Origin: Roseburia faecis
GTDB lineage: Bacteria; Bacillota; Clostridia; Lachnospirales; Lachnospiraceae
Direction: 5' to 3'
Assembly: GCF_001406815.1 (NCBI RefSeq)
Contig: NZ_CVRR01000033.1
Location: forward strand, 62,001 to 126,000
DNA length: 64,000 bases
The notes below the pieces were generated by a model, which was not told the origin of the DNA, made no database searches, and saw only the letters and a list, made by a program, of their open reading frames with translations. Every line of letters starts with the position of its first letter. Positions within the stretch are counted from its first letter, which is position 1. Shown here piece by piece: positions 20,362 to 50,459 of this stretch. Both the position numbers and the translations under genes were made by a program.

Positions 20362-22185
20362 ATGAAGATAGCAGTATTTGCGACAGGATGGAACGGTGAG
20401 TACCTGCGTGATATGTATCACGGTCTGGAAAATTCACAGAAAGAATTCCATGACTCCATACATCTGTATGCAAGTTTTGGAAGACTGGGATCAGGAGACA
20501 GTTTTAATAAGTCAGAGTTTGATTTTTTTGAACTGGCAGATATGGAGGCGTACGATGGATTTTTGTATCCGAGTACCACGGTCAAAGAAGGAGATGTCAA
20601 GCAGCGGTTACTCGAACGGATCATAGAAAGTAAAAAGCCCTGTGTATCTCTGGAAGAGGAGATTCCCGGGCTTTCTTTTGTCGGAATCAATCAGAGCAAA
20701 GCCATGCGGCAGATCGTGCGGCATCTTGCCGGGGTTCATGGAATCCGGACATTTGGTTTTATTAACGGGATGAAAGATACCTATGAGGCGCAGATGCGTC
20801 AACAGGGGGTAGAGTCCAAAATTCGGGAACTGGGGCTTTGTCTTATGCCGGAATGGGTGGATTATGGAAATTATGAGTACCGCTCCGGGGAAACATATGC
20901 CAGAAAAATGATTGCAGCATATGAGGCAGGGGAGGAACTCCCACAGGCGGTTATCAGCGCAAATGATCTGATGGCGGCAGCTTTTTTGCAGACCATAAAA
21001 GGAACTGCGCTCGAGGGAAAGATACCAATCACAGGGTTTGACCGGTATTTTGACGGGGAATGTTTCAGCCCGACGATGACAACCATTGAACGGCCGAGAG
21101 ACCAGGTGGCATATGAAGCTGTCAGGCTTCTGCACGAACTGCATGAAAAGGCAGATGGAAAGCTGGTACACAGGGAACTTTCCTACCGGTTTTTTATCGG
21201 GAATACCTGTGGCTGCACAAAGCATGTCCCATTTGATACGGAATCGTTCCGTAACCGGATTTTCTGGAAAAATCTGCAGGAATATGACGCAAAATCCAAA
21301 CTCGATTCCATGCAGGAATGGGTAACCAGCCGGATCTCTTTAGAAGAGATCATGGATGCGACGGGGAGATTCTTAGATCTGGTCGGGGCAGGAAGAGGGC
21401 AGATCTTTTTGACGGATGATCTGTTTTCCCAGGAAGCCAAAAGTTATCGAAGCTGTAAGAGAGAAGTACTTAACTGGTGCAATGAAAAGAACCGGACAGA
21501 AGAAGGCGGGGTACAGGTGTTTATGCCATTGCATTATCAGCTGCACCGGATGGGATACTGTATGGTGGCTGGTGTGGATGAGATGTTTAGGACAGGAATT
21601 CTGGAAACCTTTTTCCGCAATATCTGTTATGCACTGGAAAATTATATCCAGCGGAAGCAGTATCAGGAAGTAAATCTGAAACTGCAGAAGTTGTACCGGA
21701 TCGATCAGCTGACGGGAATTTATAACCGTTTTGGAATGGAAGATCTGGGACAGAAGTTTTATGAGAGAAATTGTGAGTATCATATCAATACGAAGTTTAT
21801 ATTCTGTGATATCAATCGTTTAAAATACATCAACGATACATATGGGCATAAAGCCGGTGACTGGGTCATCCGAAAGACGGGGGAAGCGCTTGGAAGGCTT
21901 GCCGCGGAAGACAGTCTGCCATTTCGGTTTGGCGGTGATGAATTTTTACTGCTGACGAGAGAAGAGTCCGGGATCACTGCGGAATCCATCCGTCAGAGTA
22001 TTGCGGCGGTATGCAAGGAAGAACCATCCCCGATCCGGGAGCCTTTAGAGGCCAGCATCGGTGTGATTCTTGCTCCGTGGGACAGCGAGTATAATATGGA
22101 TGTATATCTGAATCAGGCAGATGAGGCAATGTATGAAGAAAAGAAAATGTATCATGAAAAATATGGAGACCGGCGCAGAAGATAA
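20362..22185 (+). CDS. Cytosolic LacI-type sensor domain fused to a GGDEF diguanylate cyclase
   Basis: A 607-aa protein without signal peptide or membrane segment. Residues about 1-300 form a LacI/ribose-binding-type sensor fold (MKIAVFATGWNGEYLRDMYHGLE at the start, PQAVISANDLMAAAF and PITGFDRYFDGECFSPTMTTIERP later) but without the LacI helix-turn-helix. A linker and GAF-like region (about 300-440) precede the GGDEF domain with the active site RFGGDEF (GGDEF at 524-528), predicted to make cyclic di-GMP from GTP. The same architecture recurs at 37922-39925. The ligand is unknown; a sugar would fit the fold. The DUF4422 gene overlaps its 3' end. Confidence 0.87.
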   Translation: MKIAVFATGWNGEYLRDMYHGLENSQKEFHDSIHLYASFGRLGSGDSFNKSEFDFFELADMEAYDGFLYPSTTVKEGDVKQRLLERIIESKKPCVSLEEEIPGLSFVGINQSKAMRQIVRHLAGVHGIRTFGFINGMKDTYEAQMRQQGVESKIRELGLCLMPEWVDYGNYEYRSGETYARKMIAAYEAGEELPQAVISANDLMAAAFLQTIKGTALEGKIPITGFDRYFDGECFSPTMTTIERPRDQVAYEAVRLLHELHEKADGKLVHRELSYRFFIGNTCGCTKHVPFDTESFRNRIFWKNLQEYDAKSKLDSMQEWVTSRISLEEIMDATGRFLDLVGAGRGQIFLTDDLFSQEAKSYRSCKREVLNWCNEKNRTEEGGVQVFMPLHYQLHRMGYCMVAGVDEMFRTGILETFFRNICYALENYIQRKQYQEVNLKLQKLYRIDQLTGIYNRFGMEDLGQKFYERNCEYHINTKFIFCDINRLKYINDTYGHKAGDWVIRKTGEALGRLAAEDSLPFRFGGDEFLLLTREESGITAESIRQSIAAVCKEEPSPIREPLEASIGVILAPWDSEYNMDVYLNQADEAMYEEKKMYHEKYGDRRRR

Positions 22186-23326
22186 AAATCAACAGACCGC
22201 CATCTATGTGATGACGCATAAGGCATTTACGCCGCCACCGGATCCGTTGTATATTCCGCTTCATGTGGGAAGAGCGGCGGCTTCGTCATACAGCAGGGAT
22301 GAGAAATCGTCCCCGCTGTCTTTTTGTGTGGGAGATAATACCGGAGATCACATTTCCGAAAAAAACTGTTATTACAGTGAACTGACGGGAATGTACTGGG
22401 TATGGAAAAACTCCCATGCAAAGGTAGTTGGTACCTGCCATTACCGCCGGTATCTTTTAAATGAGCAGGGAAAATTGTTTACAGAGGCACAGATTCTTTC
22501 TCTGCTGCAGCAGTATGATGTGATCACAACGAAAGAACTGCAGCTGAATTTTTCTTATTATGAGGGATTTGCTTCTCACCACAAGATTTTATATCTGGAC
22601 GAAACAGCCCGTGTGATACAGGAGATTTATCCGGATTATGCGGCGGATTTTCAGCAGCTGGTGCAGCAAAAGCACACCTATTTCGGAAATATGCTGATTG
22701 CAAAAAAAGAAGTTTATGATGCTTATATGGAATGGCTGTTTTCTATTTTATTTGAAGTGGAGCGGCGCGTGAAAGTGGAAGAAGAGGATTCTTATCACCG
22801 GAGAATTTTCGGATTCATTTCGGAGTTTTTACAGTATGTCTGGATCAGGCACAACAGGCTGCGGGTGTATGCGTGTATGGTAGGCATGCTGGGAGAAAAA
22901 GCAGAGATTGCAGAAGTCCGGTGCCGGCTGGCGGAATATTTTGACCGGGCAGATGTGGATGGAGCAAAGGCATATTTTTTGCAGGCAAAAAAAGAACGGC
23001 CGGATCTTCTGATGGAAGCATCGGATATCACCGGAGAACTTCATCTGTGTATGGAAGTGATCGCCATAGCAGGCTTAGAGCAGCAGGCATACGGTAAAAA
23101 TCTTCTGACCCGTGTGCGTGGATTCCGGAATCTGATGCAGTACTGCAATAACCTGAACCGGTATGTACTGCAGAAAAAACAGGAGATCCCGGATGCCGGT
23201 CTGCAGGAGTGGGAAGAAGAAAATGAGGTAACTCCGGTTGCCAGACAGGTCGCAGAACAGGTGATGCATGCGTCTGAGGCGGAGGCATCTGTGGTACACC
23301 GGCTGCAAAATCAATTGACAAAATAA
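22133..23326 (+). CDS. DUF4422 glycosyltransferase-like protein
   Basis: A protein of about 397 aa whose N-terminal half (AIYVMTHKAFTPPPDPLYIPLHVG, GDNTGDHISEKNCYYSELTGMYWVWKNSHAKVVGTCHYRRYL) matches DUF4422, a glycosyltransferase-like family found in exopolysaccharide and LPS-type clusters. The C-terminal 150 residues have no recognised family. The start is uncertain: ATG 22133 has GAGG 6 nt upstream, while ATGs at 22154 and 22163 are alternatives. All overlap the end of the GGDEF gene, which implies cotranslation and suggests that the transferase output is tied to cyclic di-GMP signalling (inference). Confidence 0.82.
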   Translation: MKKRKCIMKNMETGAEDKNQQTAIYVMTHKAFTPPPDPLYIPLHVGRAAASSYSRDEKSSPLSFCVGDNTGDHISEKNCYYSELTGMYWVWKNSHAKVVGTCHYRRYLLNEQGKLFTEAQILSLLQQYDVITTKELQLNFSYYEGFASHHKILYLDETARVIQEIYPDYAADFQQLVQQKHTYFGNMLIAKKEVYDAYMEWLFSILFEVERRVKVEEEDSYHRRIFGFISEFLQYVWIRHNRLRVYACMVGMLGEKAEIAEVRCRLAEYFDRADVDGAKAYFLQAKKERPDLLMEASDITGELHLCMEVIAIAGLEQQAYGKNLLTRVRGFRNLMQYCNNLNRYVLQKKQEIPDAGLQEWEEENEVTPVARQVAEQVMHASEAEASVVHRLQNQLTK

Positions 23327-23364
23327 AAAACATCAATAAAATTGCTTAAATTTAATCATTTCCA

Positions 23365-23409
23365 AATGAGAGATTATGTGTTAAAATTACTCATTGAAAT
23401 TGATAATAT
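23365..23409 (+). promoter_or_regulatory. Putative leuA promoter with an inverted repeat
   Basis: A weak -35 TTAAAA (23381-23386) and -10 TAATAT (23404-23409) are 17 nt apart. AATGAG (23365-23370) and CTCATT (23390-23395) form an inverted repeat whose right arm is inside the promoter spacer. The whole leader is only 108 nt and has no room for a T-box. The pair of half-sites is a candidate operator, possibly for the AraC-type domain fused to LeuA itself. Confidence 0.4.
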
Positions 23410-23434
23410 TTAATGTTGGAAAAGAGGAAACATC

Positions 23435-25435
23435 ATGAAAAATTTTGACAAGTATGAAAGACAGTATTTTCTTCCTCCAGTCTGCGAATACGACTGGGCC
23501 AAAAAAGATTACATAGAGAAAGCACCAATCTGGTGTTCCGTGGACCTGCGTGACGGTAACCAGGCACTGATCGAGCCGATGAGCCTTGACGAGAAGCTGG
23601 AGTTTTTCCAGATGCTCGTGGATATCGGATTTAAGGAAATTGAAGTTGGATTCCCGGCAGCATCAGAAACAGAGTTTATTTTTATGCGTACGCTGATTGA
23701 GCGGGATATGATTCCGGATGATGTGACCGTTCAGGTACTGACACAGGCGCGTGAGCATATCATTAAAAAAACATTTGAGGCAGTCAAAGGGGCTCCGCAT
23801 GCAGTTATTCATCTGTACAATTCCACTTCTGTGGCACAGCGGGAGCAGGTGTTTAAAAAAGACAAAGAGCATATCATGCAGCTGGCTGTGGATGGTGCAA
23901 AGCTGTTAAAGAGACTTGCCAGTGAGACAGAGGGAGATTTCTCTTTTGAGTACAGTCCGGAAAGTTTCCACGGAACCGAAGTGGATTACGCAGTCGATGT
24001 CTGCAATGCCGTTCTGGATGTATGGGAGCCGGATGCCGCACACAAGGCAATTATCAATATCCCGGCAACTGTTGAGACTGCAATGCCGCATATTTTTGCA
24101 ACACAGATCGAATATGTAAGCAAGCATCTGCACCACAGAGAAAATGTGGTACTCAGTCTTCATCCGCACAACGACAGAGGCTGCGGTGTCAGTGATGCTG
24201 AACTGGGACTTCTGGCAGGAGCAGACCGTATCGAAGGCACGCTGTTTGGAAACGGAGAGCGTACCGGAAATGTCGATATCATTACGCTTGCCATGAACAT
24301 GTTTTCTTATGGCATTGACCCGAAACTGGACTTTGCAGATATGCCACGCATCCGTGAGACGTATGAGCGTCTGACGAGAATGCATGTCCATGAGCGTTCT
24401 CCGTATGCCGGAGATCTTGTCTTTTCTGCGTTCTCCGGTTCCCATCAGGATGCGATTGCAAAGGGAATGGCCTGGAGAGAAGAAAAGAAATTAAAGACAT
24501 GGACGGTTCCGTATCTGCCGATCGATCCGATGGATGTGGGAAGAACTTACGATGCCGATGTTATCCGTATCAACAGCCAGTCCGGAAAGGGAGGAATCAG
24601 TTATATCTTAAAGCAGAATTTCTCCATTTCTCTGCCGCAGGCAATGAAAGAAGAAGTCGGATATGCAGTGAAACAGGTATCGGATGAAGAACACAAGGAA
24701 CTTTCTCCACAGTGGGTATACGAGATCTTTGAAGAAAACTATATGAACAAAATGCCGTACTTTACAATCGATTCTTGCCATTTCAAGCAGAATGATGGTA
24801 TTATGGCAGAGACAGAAATTAACTTTGGCGGAAAGAAGACCATCGTCGATGCAAACGGAAACGGTCGTCTGGACGCCGTGAGCAACACAATCAAGCAGTT
24901 CTTCGGTATCAGCTACGAACTTTCTACCTATGAAGAACATGCATTGTCCCATGGATCTTCTTCTAAGGCAATCGCCTATGTGGGCATTACCTGTGAAGGA
25001 AAGAGTTACTGGGGTGTCGGTATGGATGAGGATATCATCAAAGCGTCCATCCATGCGCTGACGGTTGCTGTAAATAAATTACCGCAGATTGCACAAAATG
25101 ATGGGGCACAGGATGAACGCCTGACCGCCATGCTTAATTTTATCCAGAACAATTATCAGGATGTAACACTTGAGAGCATGGCAGCGCAGTTCCATCTGTC
25201 AGAGCCTTATATCTCCAAATATATCAAGGATAAATCAGGTAAGACATTTGGAGAGCACGTAGCCCATATTCGTATGAAACGTGCCAAGACTCTGCTGAAA
25301 AACGGTAATATGACGGTTGAAAATATTGCGGATGTTGTCGGATATCCGAGTGTTGAGCATTTTAACCGTACCTTTAAAAAATGCTTTGATATGACTCCGT
25401 TGCAGTACCGCAATGAGAGCCGCGAGAAAAAATAA
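23435..25435 (+). CDS. leuA: 2-isopropylmalate synthase fused to an AraC-type DNA-binding domain
   Basis: First enzyme of leucine synthesis (acetyl-CoA + 2-oxoisovalerate). Residues 1 to about 430 are the LeuA catalytic barrel, with DLRDGNQAL near residue 35, LHPHNDRGCGVSDAELG (the HxH metal ligands) and GNGERTGN. About 445-550 is the C-terminal regulatory LeuA domain. Residues about 560-661 are an AraC/XylS-type double helix-turn-helix: VTLESMAAQFHLSEPYISKYI, then MTVENIADVVGYPSVEHFNRTFKKCF and TPLQYRNE. At 666 aa it is about 110 aa longer than normal LeuA of this type (about 550-560 aa). The reading frame is continuous, with no gap or stop at the junction. Start with AGAGGAAA upstream. Confidence 0.94.
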   Translation: MKNFDKYERQYFLPPVCEYDWAKKDYIEKAPIWCSVDLRDGNQALIEPMSLDEKLEFFQMLVDIGFKEIEVGFPAASETEFIFMRTLIERDMIPDDVTVQVLTQAREHIIKKTFEAVKGAPHAVIHLYNSTSVAQREQVFKKDKEHIMQLAVDGAKLLKRLASETEGDFSFEYSPESFHGTEVDYAVDVCNAVLDVWEPDAAHKAIINIPATVETAMPHIFATQIEYVSKHLHHRENVVLSLHPHNDRGCGVSDAELGLLAGADRIEGTLFGNGERTGNVDIITLAMNMFSYGIDPKLDFADMPRIRETYERLTRMHVHERSPYAGDLVFSAFSGSHQDAIAKGMAWREEKKLKTWTVPYLPIDPMDVGRTYDADVIRINSQSGKGGISYILKQNFSISLPQAMKEEVGYAVKQVSDEEHKELSPQWVYEIFEENYMNKMPYFTIDSCHFKQNDGIMAETEINFGGKKTIVDANGNGRLDAVSNTIKQFFGISYELSTYEEHALSHGSSSKAIAYVGITCEGKSYWGVGMDEDIIKASIHALTVAVNKLPQIAQNDGAQDERLTAMLNFIQNNYQDVTLESMAAQFHLSEPYISKYIKDKSGKTFGEHVAHIRMKRAKTLLKNGNMTVENIADVVGYPSVEHFNRTFKKCFDMTPLQYRNESREKK

Positions 25436-48552: not shown

Positions 48553-49057
48553 AGTGTGCCGAGCATGGCACTAATCTTACTGGTGAAAGTCCAGTCACGG
48601 GTATTTACCGCCAAGTGTAGTGAACCACAAGTCGGTACCAGTAATGGTATGGATGAAGGAAGTGGTGTAACAAAGTTCTTGAGCCTACGTACAGAAACTT
48701 GATAAGGCGATTAGGTGGGTAAGGTTGCTAGACAAACCAAAGCCCAAAAGGTAAACGTAAACCGAAGTTGTAAATCAAGAGGTTGTGGAACGAAAGATTA
48801 GCGTCTTACCTCGGGAGACCCTACTCACATACTGAAAGGTATGGTCGAAAAAAGGTTTAGAGAGGGAGTCAGATGATGTCATAGTAGGCGAAAGCCGAAG
48901 GACTGAAACGATTTATAGTACGAATCGTTATGTTTAAAATAATACATGAGCCAGAAATCGAGTGGACAGGAAAAGTAGGAACGTAACCGAGGAATACTGT
49001 TTATACTTAGAGGGGTGTTATGTATGAATTTTAGGATAAGTCAGAGGAGTAACAACA

Positions 49058-50362
49058 ATGGAATTGATTGAAGTGATCTTGTCAAAAGAAAATCTGAACA
49101 GAGCCTATAAAAAGGTAGTTGCCAATAAAGGTGCGAGTGGTGTTGATGGAGTTACTGTAGAAGAACTGGGAGATTATATAAGGAAGAACAGAGAGAAAAT
49201 CGTTACATCTCTTAGAAACAGAACATATATACCGAAACCAGTCCGAAGAGTATACATTCCGAAAGACAATGGTAAGAAAAGACCATTGGGAATACCCACA
49301 GCACTTGACAGAACTATCCAGCAGGCAATAGCACAGCCTATATCTGATATTTATGAAGAGATATTCAGTGACTATAGTTATGGATTCAGAGCCGGAAGAA
49401 GTTGTCATGATGCCATTCGACAGGCATTGGAATACTTGAATGATGGGTATGAATGGGTAGTGGATATAGATATAGAACAGTTTTTTGACAAGGTAAATCA
49501 CGACAAATTAATTCAGATACTAAGAGAACAAGTAAATGACAGTACCACATTAAATCTGATTCGGAAATATCTGAAAGCAGGTGTAATGGAAAACGGCTTG
49601 GAAAAAGCAACTATTACCGGCGTGCCGCAAGGAGGTCCTCTTTCAGTCGTATGTTCAAATGTCTACTTGGACAAGCTGGACAAAGAACTGGAACATAGAG
49701 GACTCCGCTTTACAAGGTATGCAGATGATGTATTAATTTTCACTAAAAGTGAAATGGCGGCTAACCGGGTGATGAACTCCATAAGTGATTGGCTGGAACG
49801 GAAACTATTTCTAAAAGTAAATGCAACAAAAACGAAAGTAGTCAGACCGATGCGAAGCAAATACCTAGGATTCACATTTCTGAAAAACGGTGGAGAGTGG
49901 AAAGTAAAACCTACCAATGAAAAGAAAAAGAAGCTTAAAAAGAAGCTGTGTGAATATCTGAAGAGAGGGAAAGCAATAGCAAGACCTCTTGTGGTTACAA
50001 TCAAGCGAGTAAATGAGATTGTGCGAGGATGGATTAATTACTTTAGAATCGGGTTGATGAAGCAATTTGTGGAAGAGCTTGGACAGTGGCTAAGACACAA
50101 AATAAGAATGATAGTCATGAAGCAATGGAAGAAGCCGAAAACCATCTACAGAAACCTAAGTTATCTAAACTGGAAGAACCGAAACGGATACAGTCAGGAA
50201 GATATTCATAAAGTTGCGAATTCAAGACTTGGGTGGTATAGAAGAAGTGGAATGAACGTGGTGAATTTCATTATCAGTAAAGATTTACTTGAAAATAGGA
50301 TAAAAGATGGAGCTGGTCTGCTCAATCCCTTATCCTATTACTTAGCAAAAGTTGGAATATAA
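49058..50362 (+). CDS. ltrA: Group II intron reverse transcriptase/maturase
   Basis: A 434-aa intron-encoded protein that splices the intron RNA and copies it into DNA. RT motifs in order: GASGVDGVTVEEL, IPKDNGKKRPLGIPTALDRTIQQA, DIDIEQFFDKVNH, GVPQGGPLS, the catalytic YADD (in RYADDVLIF) and a thumb/maturase domain X (RGWINYFRIG). No HNH endonuclease domain follows, as in class C enzymes. The N-terminal block resembles the known GsI-IIC enzyme. Start behind CAGAGGAG. The reading frame is intact, so the element may be active. Confidence 0.95.
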   Translation: MELIEVILSKENLNRAYKKVVANKGASGVDGVTVEELGDYIRKNREKIVTSLRNRTYIPKPVRRVYIPKDNGKKRPLGIPTALDRTIQQAIAQPISDIYEEIFSDYSYGFRAGRSCHDAIRQALEYLNDGYEWVVDIDIEQFFDKVNHDKLIQILREQVNDSTTLNLIRKYLKAGVMENGLEKATITGVPQGGPLSVVCSNVYLDKLDKELEHRGLRFTRYADDVLIFTKSEMAANRVMNSISDWLERKLFLKVNATKTKVVRPMRSKYLGFTFLKNGGEWKVKPTNEKKKKLKKKLCEYLKRGKAIARPLVVTIKRVNEIVRGWINYFRIGLMKQFVEELGQWLRHKIRMIVMKQWKKPKTIYRNLSYLNWKNRNGYSQEDIHKVANSRLGWYRRSGMNVVNFIISKDLLENRIKDGAGLLNPLSYYLAKVGI

Positions 50363-50368
50363 GTTGTA

Positions 50369-50399
50369 GAGCCGTATACGAGATCCGTACGTACGGTTC
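50369..50399 (+). ncRNA. Group II intron domain V
   Basis: Hairpin GAGCCGT...ACGGTTC with the AGC-type catalytic start and a short internal bulge; the most conserved part of group II introns. It lies 7 nt after the RT stop. Confidence 0.85.
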
Positions 50400-50459
50400 A
50401 ATGGGAGGGGCGAGATAATTATTCTCCCTCTACCCTATTATATAAATAGAAAGAGAGGC

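Follow-up and report, generated by a model that had tools for sequence, protein, structure and literature searches.

A LeuA enzyme fused to an AraC-type DNA-binding domain in Roseburia faecis and its relatives, a candidate regulator of its own promoter

Why an enzyme of leucine synthesis should end in a DNA-binding domain, and what this domain could be doing there, is the question raised by a leuA gene of Roseburia faecis, located in a 64-kb stretch of DNA that was analysed as a whole and is called here the window. The original prediction, made from the sequence alone, had described a complete LeuA (2-isopropylmalate synthase) continued, with no break in the frame, by a full double helix-turn-helix (HTH) of AraC type, and had supposed that the enzyme reads the leucine level and itself binds DNA. 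The features of the locus are collected in Table 1.

Table 1. Features of the leuA-araC gene, its product and its promoter region, in coordinates of the window
Feature	Position	Strand	Residues	Basis or remark
Candidate operator site 1, TAAAAAACATCAATAAAATTGCTTAAATTTAATCATT	23324..23360	+		37 bp; matrix score 50.5, best in window
-35 position, TTTCCA	23359..23364	+		4/6 matches; overlapped by site 1
Extended -10, TGT TAAAAT	23379..23387	+		Hexamer 21 bp after site 1
Candidate operator site 2, core CTCATTGAAATTGAT	23390..23415	+		Second-best matrix match of window
leuA-araC fusion gene	23435..25435	+		Uninterrupted ATG ORF, 666 aa
HMGL-like catalytic domain	23525..24358	+	31-308	Pfam, 233.5 bits
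IPMS_D2	24413..24613	+	327-393	Pfam, above gathering cut-off
LeuA_dimer regulatory domain	24704..25081	+	424-549	Pfam, above gathering cut-off; structure model
Variable linker	25082..25120	+	550-562	Mean pairwise identity 0.31, 104 fused proteins
AraC-type double HTH	25121..25414	+	563-660	Mean pairwise identity 0.64
First recognition-helix region	25199..25237	+	589-601	Identity 0.79
Second recognition-helix region	25346..25381	+	638-649	Identity 0.79

The two domains are indeed found in one ORF, and a Pfam search agrees with the initial description: HMGL-like, LeuA_dimer and HTH_18 are all recovered above their gathering cut-offs. HTH_18 (residues 582-660) reaches 71.7 bits for a cut-off of 33.6, HTH_AraC is also above its gathering cut-off at residues 622-660, and the boundary first given to the HTH (about residues 560-661) was right. 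The 666-aa protein passes PRK03739, the NCBIfam model of LeuA, with 804.5 bits for a cut-off of 455; its score with TIGR00970 is 667.5, under that model's own cut-off of 697.4. R39, D40, E176, H243 and H245, within the HMGL-like domain, and H337 and Y360, beyond it, are identical (7/7, in an alignment counted by hand) to R80, D81, E218, H285, H287, H379 and Y410 of Mycobacterium tuberculosis LeuA, which we take to be catalytic. Structure prediction points the same way, as a model of the C-terminal 247 aa (pLDDT 87) matches M. tuberculosis LeuA (1sr9 and 3fig, the latter leucine-bound) in an alignment of about 135 columns and, in a separate part, AraC-type DNA-binding domains of solved structure, among them MarA and AdpA in complex with DNA; the full-length model is only fair (pLDDT 75). 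On the reverse strand, the longest ORFs inside the gene are of 179 and 148 aa. By the features tested the protein is a LeuA and its tail an AraC-type domain, an enzyme and a DNA-binding domain being joined in one chain, as in trigger enzymes.

A sequencing error or a programmed stop at the junction is rejected for the window, because every one of the best 120 homologue clusters, out of 7981, is fused, with the same domain set; the named ones among these 120 are from Agathobacter, Roseburia, Lachnobacterium and Lachnospiraceae. The fusion, whose phylogenetic spread had been raised as a check, is widespread: with one genome per genus and a match running through the HTH, it is present in at least 59 of 250 genera of the family, that of R. 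faecis included. In 24 genomes from other families of the order, full-length matches number 0 and the enzyme alone is found in 7. The nearest HTH-less cousins within the family share about 60-70% identity over residues 1-549. In the R. faecis genome itself, the fused gene is the only full match to LeuA, the other HMGL-type match being a weak piece (27%, residues 240-344), and leuC and leuD are present; the enzyme part is therefore presumably needed by the cell. A plasmid origin was considered and rejected, the plasmid collection holding no near match.

Two other features of the window can be mentioned. A 607-aa protein (20362-22185, +) combines a LacI/CytR-type ligand-binding region (about residues 104-262, below family cut-offs) with a GGDEF domain and looks like a ligand-sensing diguanylate cyclase. 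A group II intron lies at 48635-50438 (+), with Rfam matches to D1D4-3 (48635-48804) and Intron_gpII (50367-50438).

The leuA leader had been proposed as the DNA for a binding test, but no T-box or other Rfam leader is found at leuA in the window, nor a T-box in L001 at the gathering threshold; a candidate operator is found at the promoter instead. The leuA upstream regions have in common the consensus TAAAAaAnATCAAnAAAAnTGATTAAATTTAATCATT, and a matrix was trained on 29 sites with at least 24/29 consensus matches, from 33 first upstream regions (L051, with 85 nt upstream, was left out of this first set as too short, and so were L060 and L061, whose genomes do have the operator). Its scores do not exceed 8.1 in 720 shuffled upstream regions and 3.1 in the upstream regions of 12 unfused leuA genes. 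A stricter motif pattern, too strict for either site, has no match in the window.

Across the family, the operator goes with the HTH. When one genome per genus is considered, and an operator is called if the full or left-half matrix reaches a threshold of 13, it is present within 500 nt upstream of fused leuA in 50/58 cases (genes with at least 300 nt upstream; L139, with 47 nt, was left out as too short), before both split genes, with the HTH in the next frame, and before none of the 19 leuA genes without HTH in the same set, counts that are not independent trials since the sequences are related. With the full matrix alone, these figures are 37/58, 2/2 and 0/19. The left-half matrix has a rate of 0.25% in 800 shuffles, the best HTH-less gene (L179) scoring 12.5. 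Four of the 58 places (L110, L112, L116 and L152) also belong to the 29 training sites, and L166, in which the contig end cuts inside the HTH, is counted as fused. The eight fused genes without operator at threshold are L128, L131, L134, L153, L161 and L168, together with L147 and L164, which have weak matches. In distant fused LeuA genomes (about 70% identity, L065-L074), the left half is mostly kept and the right half is changed. L160 and L170 were rejected as operator-positive 'unfused' genes, the HTH being encoded in the next frame directly behind leuA; no such downstream HTH match is found for the 19 HTH-less genes over about 1.7 kb each (390 bases to the contig end for one).

Two genomes, at L190 (1522-1866 and 1856-3550, -) and L191 (1692-2009 and 2009-3712, -), encode leuA and its AraC HTH in adjacent frames, and both have the operator. 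The frame change of L191 adjoins a run of eight A; error, a real split or slippage may be involved in these two cases.

The operator is also largely specific to leuA at the genome scale. A 29-base pattern with up to three mismatches occurs at one place in the R. faecis genome and at 21 places in 19 of 60 relatives' genomes, 18 of these places being just upstream of leuA; a control pattern occurs at 0 places in the same 60 genomes. In G001, whose leuA contig begins 85 bp before the gene, two sites lie on other contigs; G035 has one additional site, at three mismatches. A looser pattern is matched in 13 of 15 locus-reached genomes (four of which repeat members of the 60), each time exactly once at up to two mismatches; several places with three mismatches lie away from leuA, and the control pattern gave 1. 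By matrix scan, leuCD of R. faecis has no operator, and control would therefore be of leuA only; a wider regulon in this genome, with its single strong site and none at leuCD, is rejected. A gene for a LysR-type regulator (L108, 8313-9221, -) is divergent from leuCD in the same genome, and leuCD may accordingly be under separate control. We consider it very likely that LeuA-AraC controls its own promoter through the candidate operator. The predicted DNA binding and transcriptional control by the enzyme itself, as originally proposed, are well supported by comparison, that is, by the operator and its co-occurrence with the HTH, and by the phasing, the Ruminobacter genes and the covariation described below.

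Promoter geometry suggests how this control could operate. From site 1 to the start of the best -10 hexamer, the distance is 21 bp in 58/74 distinct promoters and 20 bp in 7/74, where shuffling of 75 promoters gives expected counts of 3.3 and 2.8 (duplicate promoters were left out of the phasing set, as were L068, L124 and L141, which lie too close to the gene). An extended -10 with TG is seen in 71/74, under a scoring that favoured TG, and the -35 of the promoters with site 1 is weak, with two to four of six matches in 72/74. At two places without site 1 (L034/L056, which are one place, and L055), TTGACT is seen by eye at a distance of 17 bp upstream of the -10; weak stretches resembling the left half persist at L034/L056, and L055 has a reversed one at the start. 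Class II activators of the AraC/XylS family have a site that overlaps the -35 with a fixed phasing, the same arrangement as that of site 1. Activation at site 1 is favoured because of the fixed 20-21 bp phasing, the weak -35 and the consensus-like -35 where site 1 is missing. Site 1 is taken as an activator position, from which LeuA-AraC would touch RNA polymerase as a class II activator does.

Site 2 is a partial copy located 58 bp past site 1, over the predicted transcription start, where binding would repress. Its core, [TA]CAN6TTGA, occurs within 60 bp after the -10 in 36/61 promoters for 0.6 expected, and a matrix test of the region is weaker, with 5/61 above the 99% level of shuffles. 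LeuA-AraC would thus probably activate from site 1 and, in many species, repress from site 2. Alternatively, it could be a pure autorepressor, leucine-bound LeuA-AraC blocking the promoter from both sites without any activation. Amino-acid genes are usually repressed by their end product, and the overlap of site 1 with the -35 and the position of site 2 over the start would both suit it. We nevertheless find this alternative rather unlikely, as the phasing, the weak -35 and the consensus-like -35 at the two places lacking site 1 fit activation better, and the site-2 core is absent from 25/61 promoters.

The signal in this dual control from sites 1 and 2 may be leucine, substrate or both. Reading of the leucine level is suggested by one feature, the presence of the LeuA_dimer domain: leucine bound there would probably alter the dimer, so that catalysis would fall and transcription would shift from activation to repression. 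Regulation could instead depend on substrate or enzyme activity (2-ketoisovalerate, acetyl-CoA), in the manner of PutA, described in PMC8249747 as a repressor when its substrate proline is absent. This second alternative also appears doubtful, since the short linker joins the HTH to LeuA_dimer and not to the catalytic domain.

When a tree of the LeuA part is rooted at its midpoint, a single clade of 112 (support 0.85) takes in every fused and split gene together with six HTH-less ones (L173, L175, L177, L180, L183 and L188), and only HTH-less genes are found outside it. The simplest reading, with modest support, would be one origin of the fusion and several losses of the HTH. The protein set leaves out L041 and L043, the tree 17 near-duplicate proteins, and alignment A1 leaves out L037, whose range held a stop. 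Some same-genus genomes have a distant unfused LeuA (48-50%), as the only one in G011 and G024 and beside the fused one in G013; this points to replacement or to a second enzyme. The fused leuA genes of L016 (labelled 'Muribaculaceae') and L038 (labelled 'Blautia') are near-duplicates, so that one or both of these MAG labels are probably wrong.

Fused leuA is also present in three genomes labelled Ruminobacter (isolate DSM 1361 and two MAGs), a genus that lineage look-up places in the Gammaproteobacteria, and there too the operator accompanies it. As these copies branch within the Lachnospiraceae-type set, in a clade of nine with support 0.91 (1.0 for the three of them together), they are read as a probable transfer to Ruminobacter. 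A MalE gene of E. coli type adjoins one of them (L029); two neighbours of the isolate's copy (L028) match no NCBIfam family. The Ruminobacter genomes have a second HMGL-type synthase, at 27-28% identity, presumably the ordinary LeuA.

The HTH and the operator also vary together. Among 79 classed operator/protein pairs, residue 590 (codon 25202-25204, in the first recognition-helix region) is E in 28, A in 6, T in 5, G in 2 and K in 1 (L042, the exception) of the 42 pairs of class A, with an ATCAT-type right end, and K in 33, S in 2, R in 1 and Q in 1 of the 37 pairs of class C, with a CACT/CCTT-type right end. Over 641 positions, mutual information with operator class peaks at two HTH residues, 610 (0.96) and 590 (0.91). 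Position 513, outside the HTH, comes next (0.87), and shared descent therefore clearly contributes. The tree shows four changes of operator class and three of residue 590; both kinds of change coincide on two branches, of which one is L142 alone. As the classes were drawn after inspection of the table, nine operators being left unclassed, the covariation of residue 590 with the variable right half of the operator is suggestive and not proof.

The operator might be read by another regulator, with the HTH of LeuA binding elsewhere or not at all, and many other AraC-type genes are indeed present in the R. faecis genome. This is very improbable, as the operator tracks the HTH across genera and is missing before all six HTH-less genes of the fused clade, occurs almost as a single copy in each genome, is kept with the gene in Ruminobacter and covaries with residue 590. 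That the HTH is an appendage serving structure or oligomerisation and binds no DNA, as the 8/58 fused genes lacking the operator might suggest, is even less probable, given that operator and HTH co-occur and that conservation in the 104 fused proteins rises from the linker (0.31) to the whole HTH (0.64) and to the recognition-helix regions (0.79), with E641, H642, F643, R645 and F647 near-invariant in the second of these regions.

Control of leuA by its product may have largely taken the place of another system. T-boxes are RNA elements that sense uncharged tRNA, and at Rfam gathering scores they precede 14/19 sampled HTH-less leuA genes versus 7/58 fused ones (Fisher p = 9e-7, without correction for relatedness); the split gene L170, the 20th source, has none. 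Three of the six HTH-less genes in the fused clade have an Rfam T-box (L173, L177 and L188). At ten fused loci, a T-box lies behind an operator or near-operator (L042/L152, L115, L117, L118, L155 and L159 by Rfam; L021, L026, L031 and L065 by motif only, the one departure from Rfam in these counts), and double control by protein and tRNA is possible there, so that the fusion is not in every case the sole control. At L134, a T-box is present but the operator is not. A Clostridiales-1 RNA (RF01699) lies between the T-box and the HTH-less leuA at L177 (1892-2055, -).

Taken as a whole, these comparisons of sequences lead us to propose that LeuA-AraC would make 2-isopropylmalate and bind two sites at its own promoter through its C-terminal domain, one enzyme being at once leucine sensor, feedback-inhibited catalyst and AraC-type switch that activates from one site and represses from the other. 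The fusion would have arisen once in a T-box-regulated lineage, in which direct sensing of a metabolite would have taken over most of the role of tRNA sensing, and it would be self-contained enough to persist with its operator after transfer to another phylum. In this complete form, we regard the proposal as about equally apt to be right or wrong.

Among the papers listed by a literature search limited to open-licence PMC papers, none is on the LeuA-AraC fusion. In common gut bacteria, Agathobacter, Roseburia and their relatives, the enzyme that opens leucine synthesis appears to act as its own transcription factor and to have a dedicated operator, which makes it a candidate leucine-responsive regulator. 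The family moreover spans a natural series, with T-box only, both, fusion only and fusion lost, in which to study how control systems replace each other. Like the T-box leaders of its close HTH-less cousins, the candidate system would control the same gene from upstream; at the window leuA, however, it consists of a protein and a DNA site. With M. tuberculosis LeuA (1sr9/3fig), LeuA-AraC has in common the catalytic and regulatory domains and the aligned active-site residues, and differs by its extra AraC-type tail of about 100 aa. With AraC, MarA and Rob of the AraC/XylS family, it shares a double HTH of about 100 aa, whereas a complete enzyme stands in place of their usual sensor domain. The E. 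coli trigger enzymes listed in PMC8249747 are BirA, NadR, PepA, PutA and PyrH, LeuA not being among them, and PutA binds only the putA-putP spacer in the screen reported there. LeuA-AraC most likely works like PutA, BirA and NadR, in which a metabolic enzyme and a DNA-binding activity are likewise found in one chain (PMC8249747; PMC6978683); unlike in these, as there described, its DNA-binding part is of AraC type and follows, in an enzyme of biosynthesis, a regulatory domain of leucine type.
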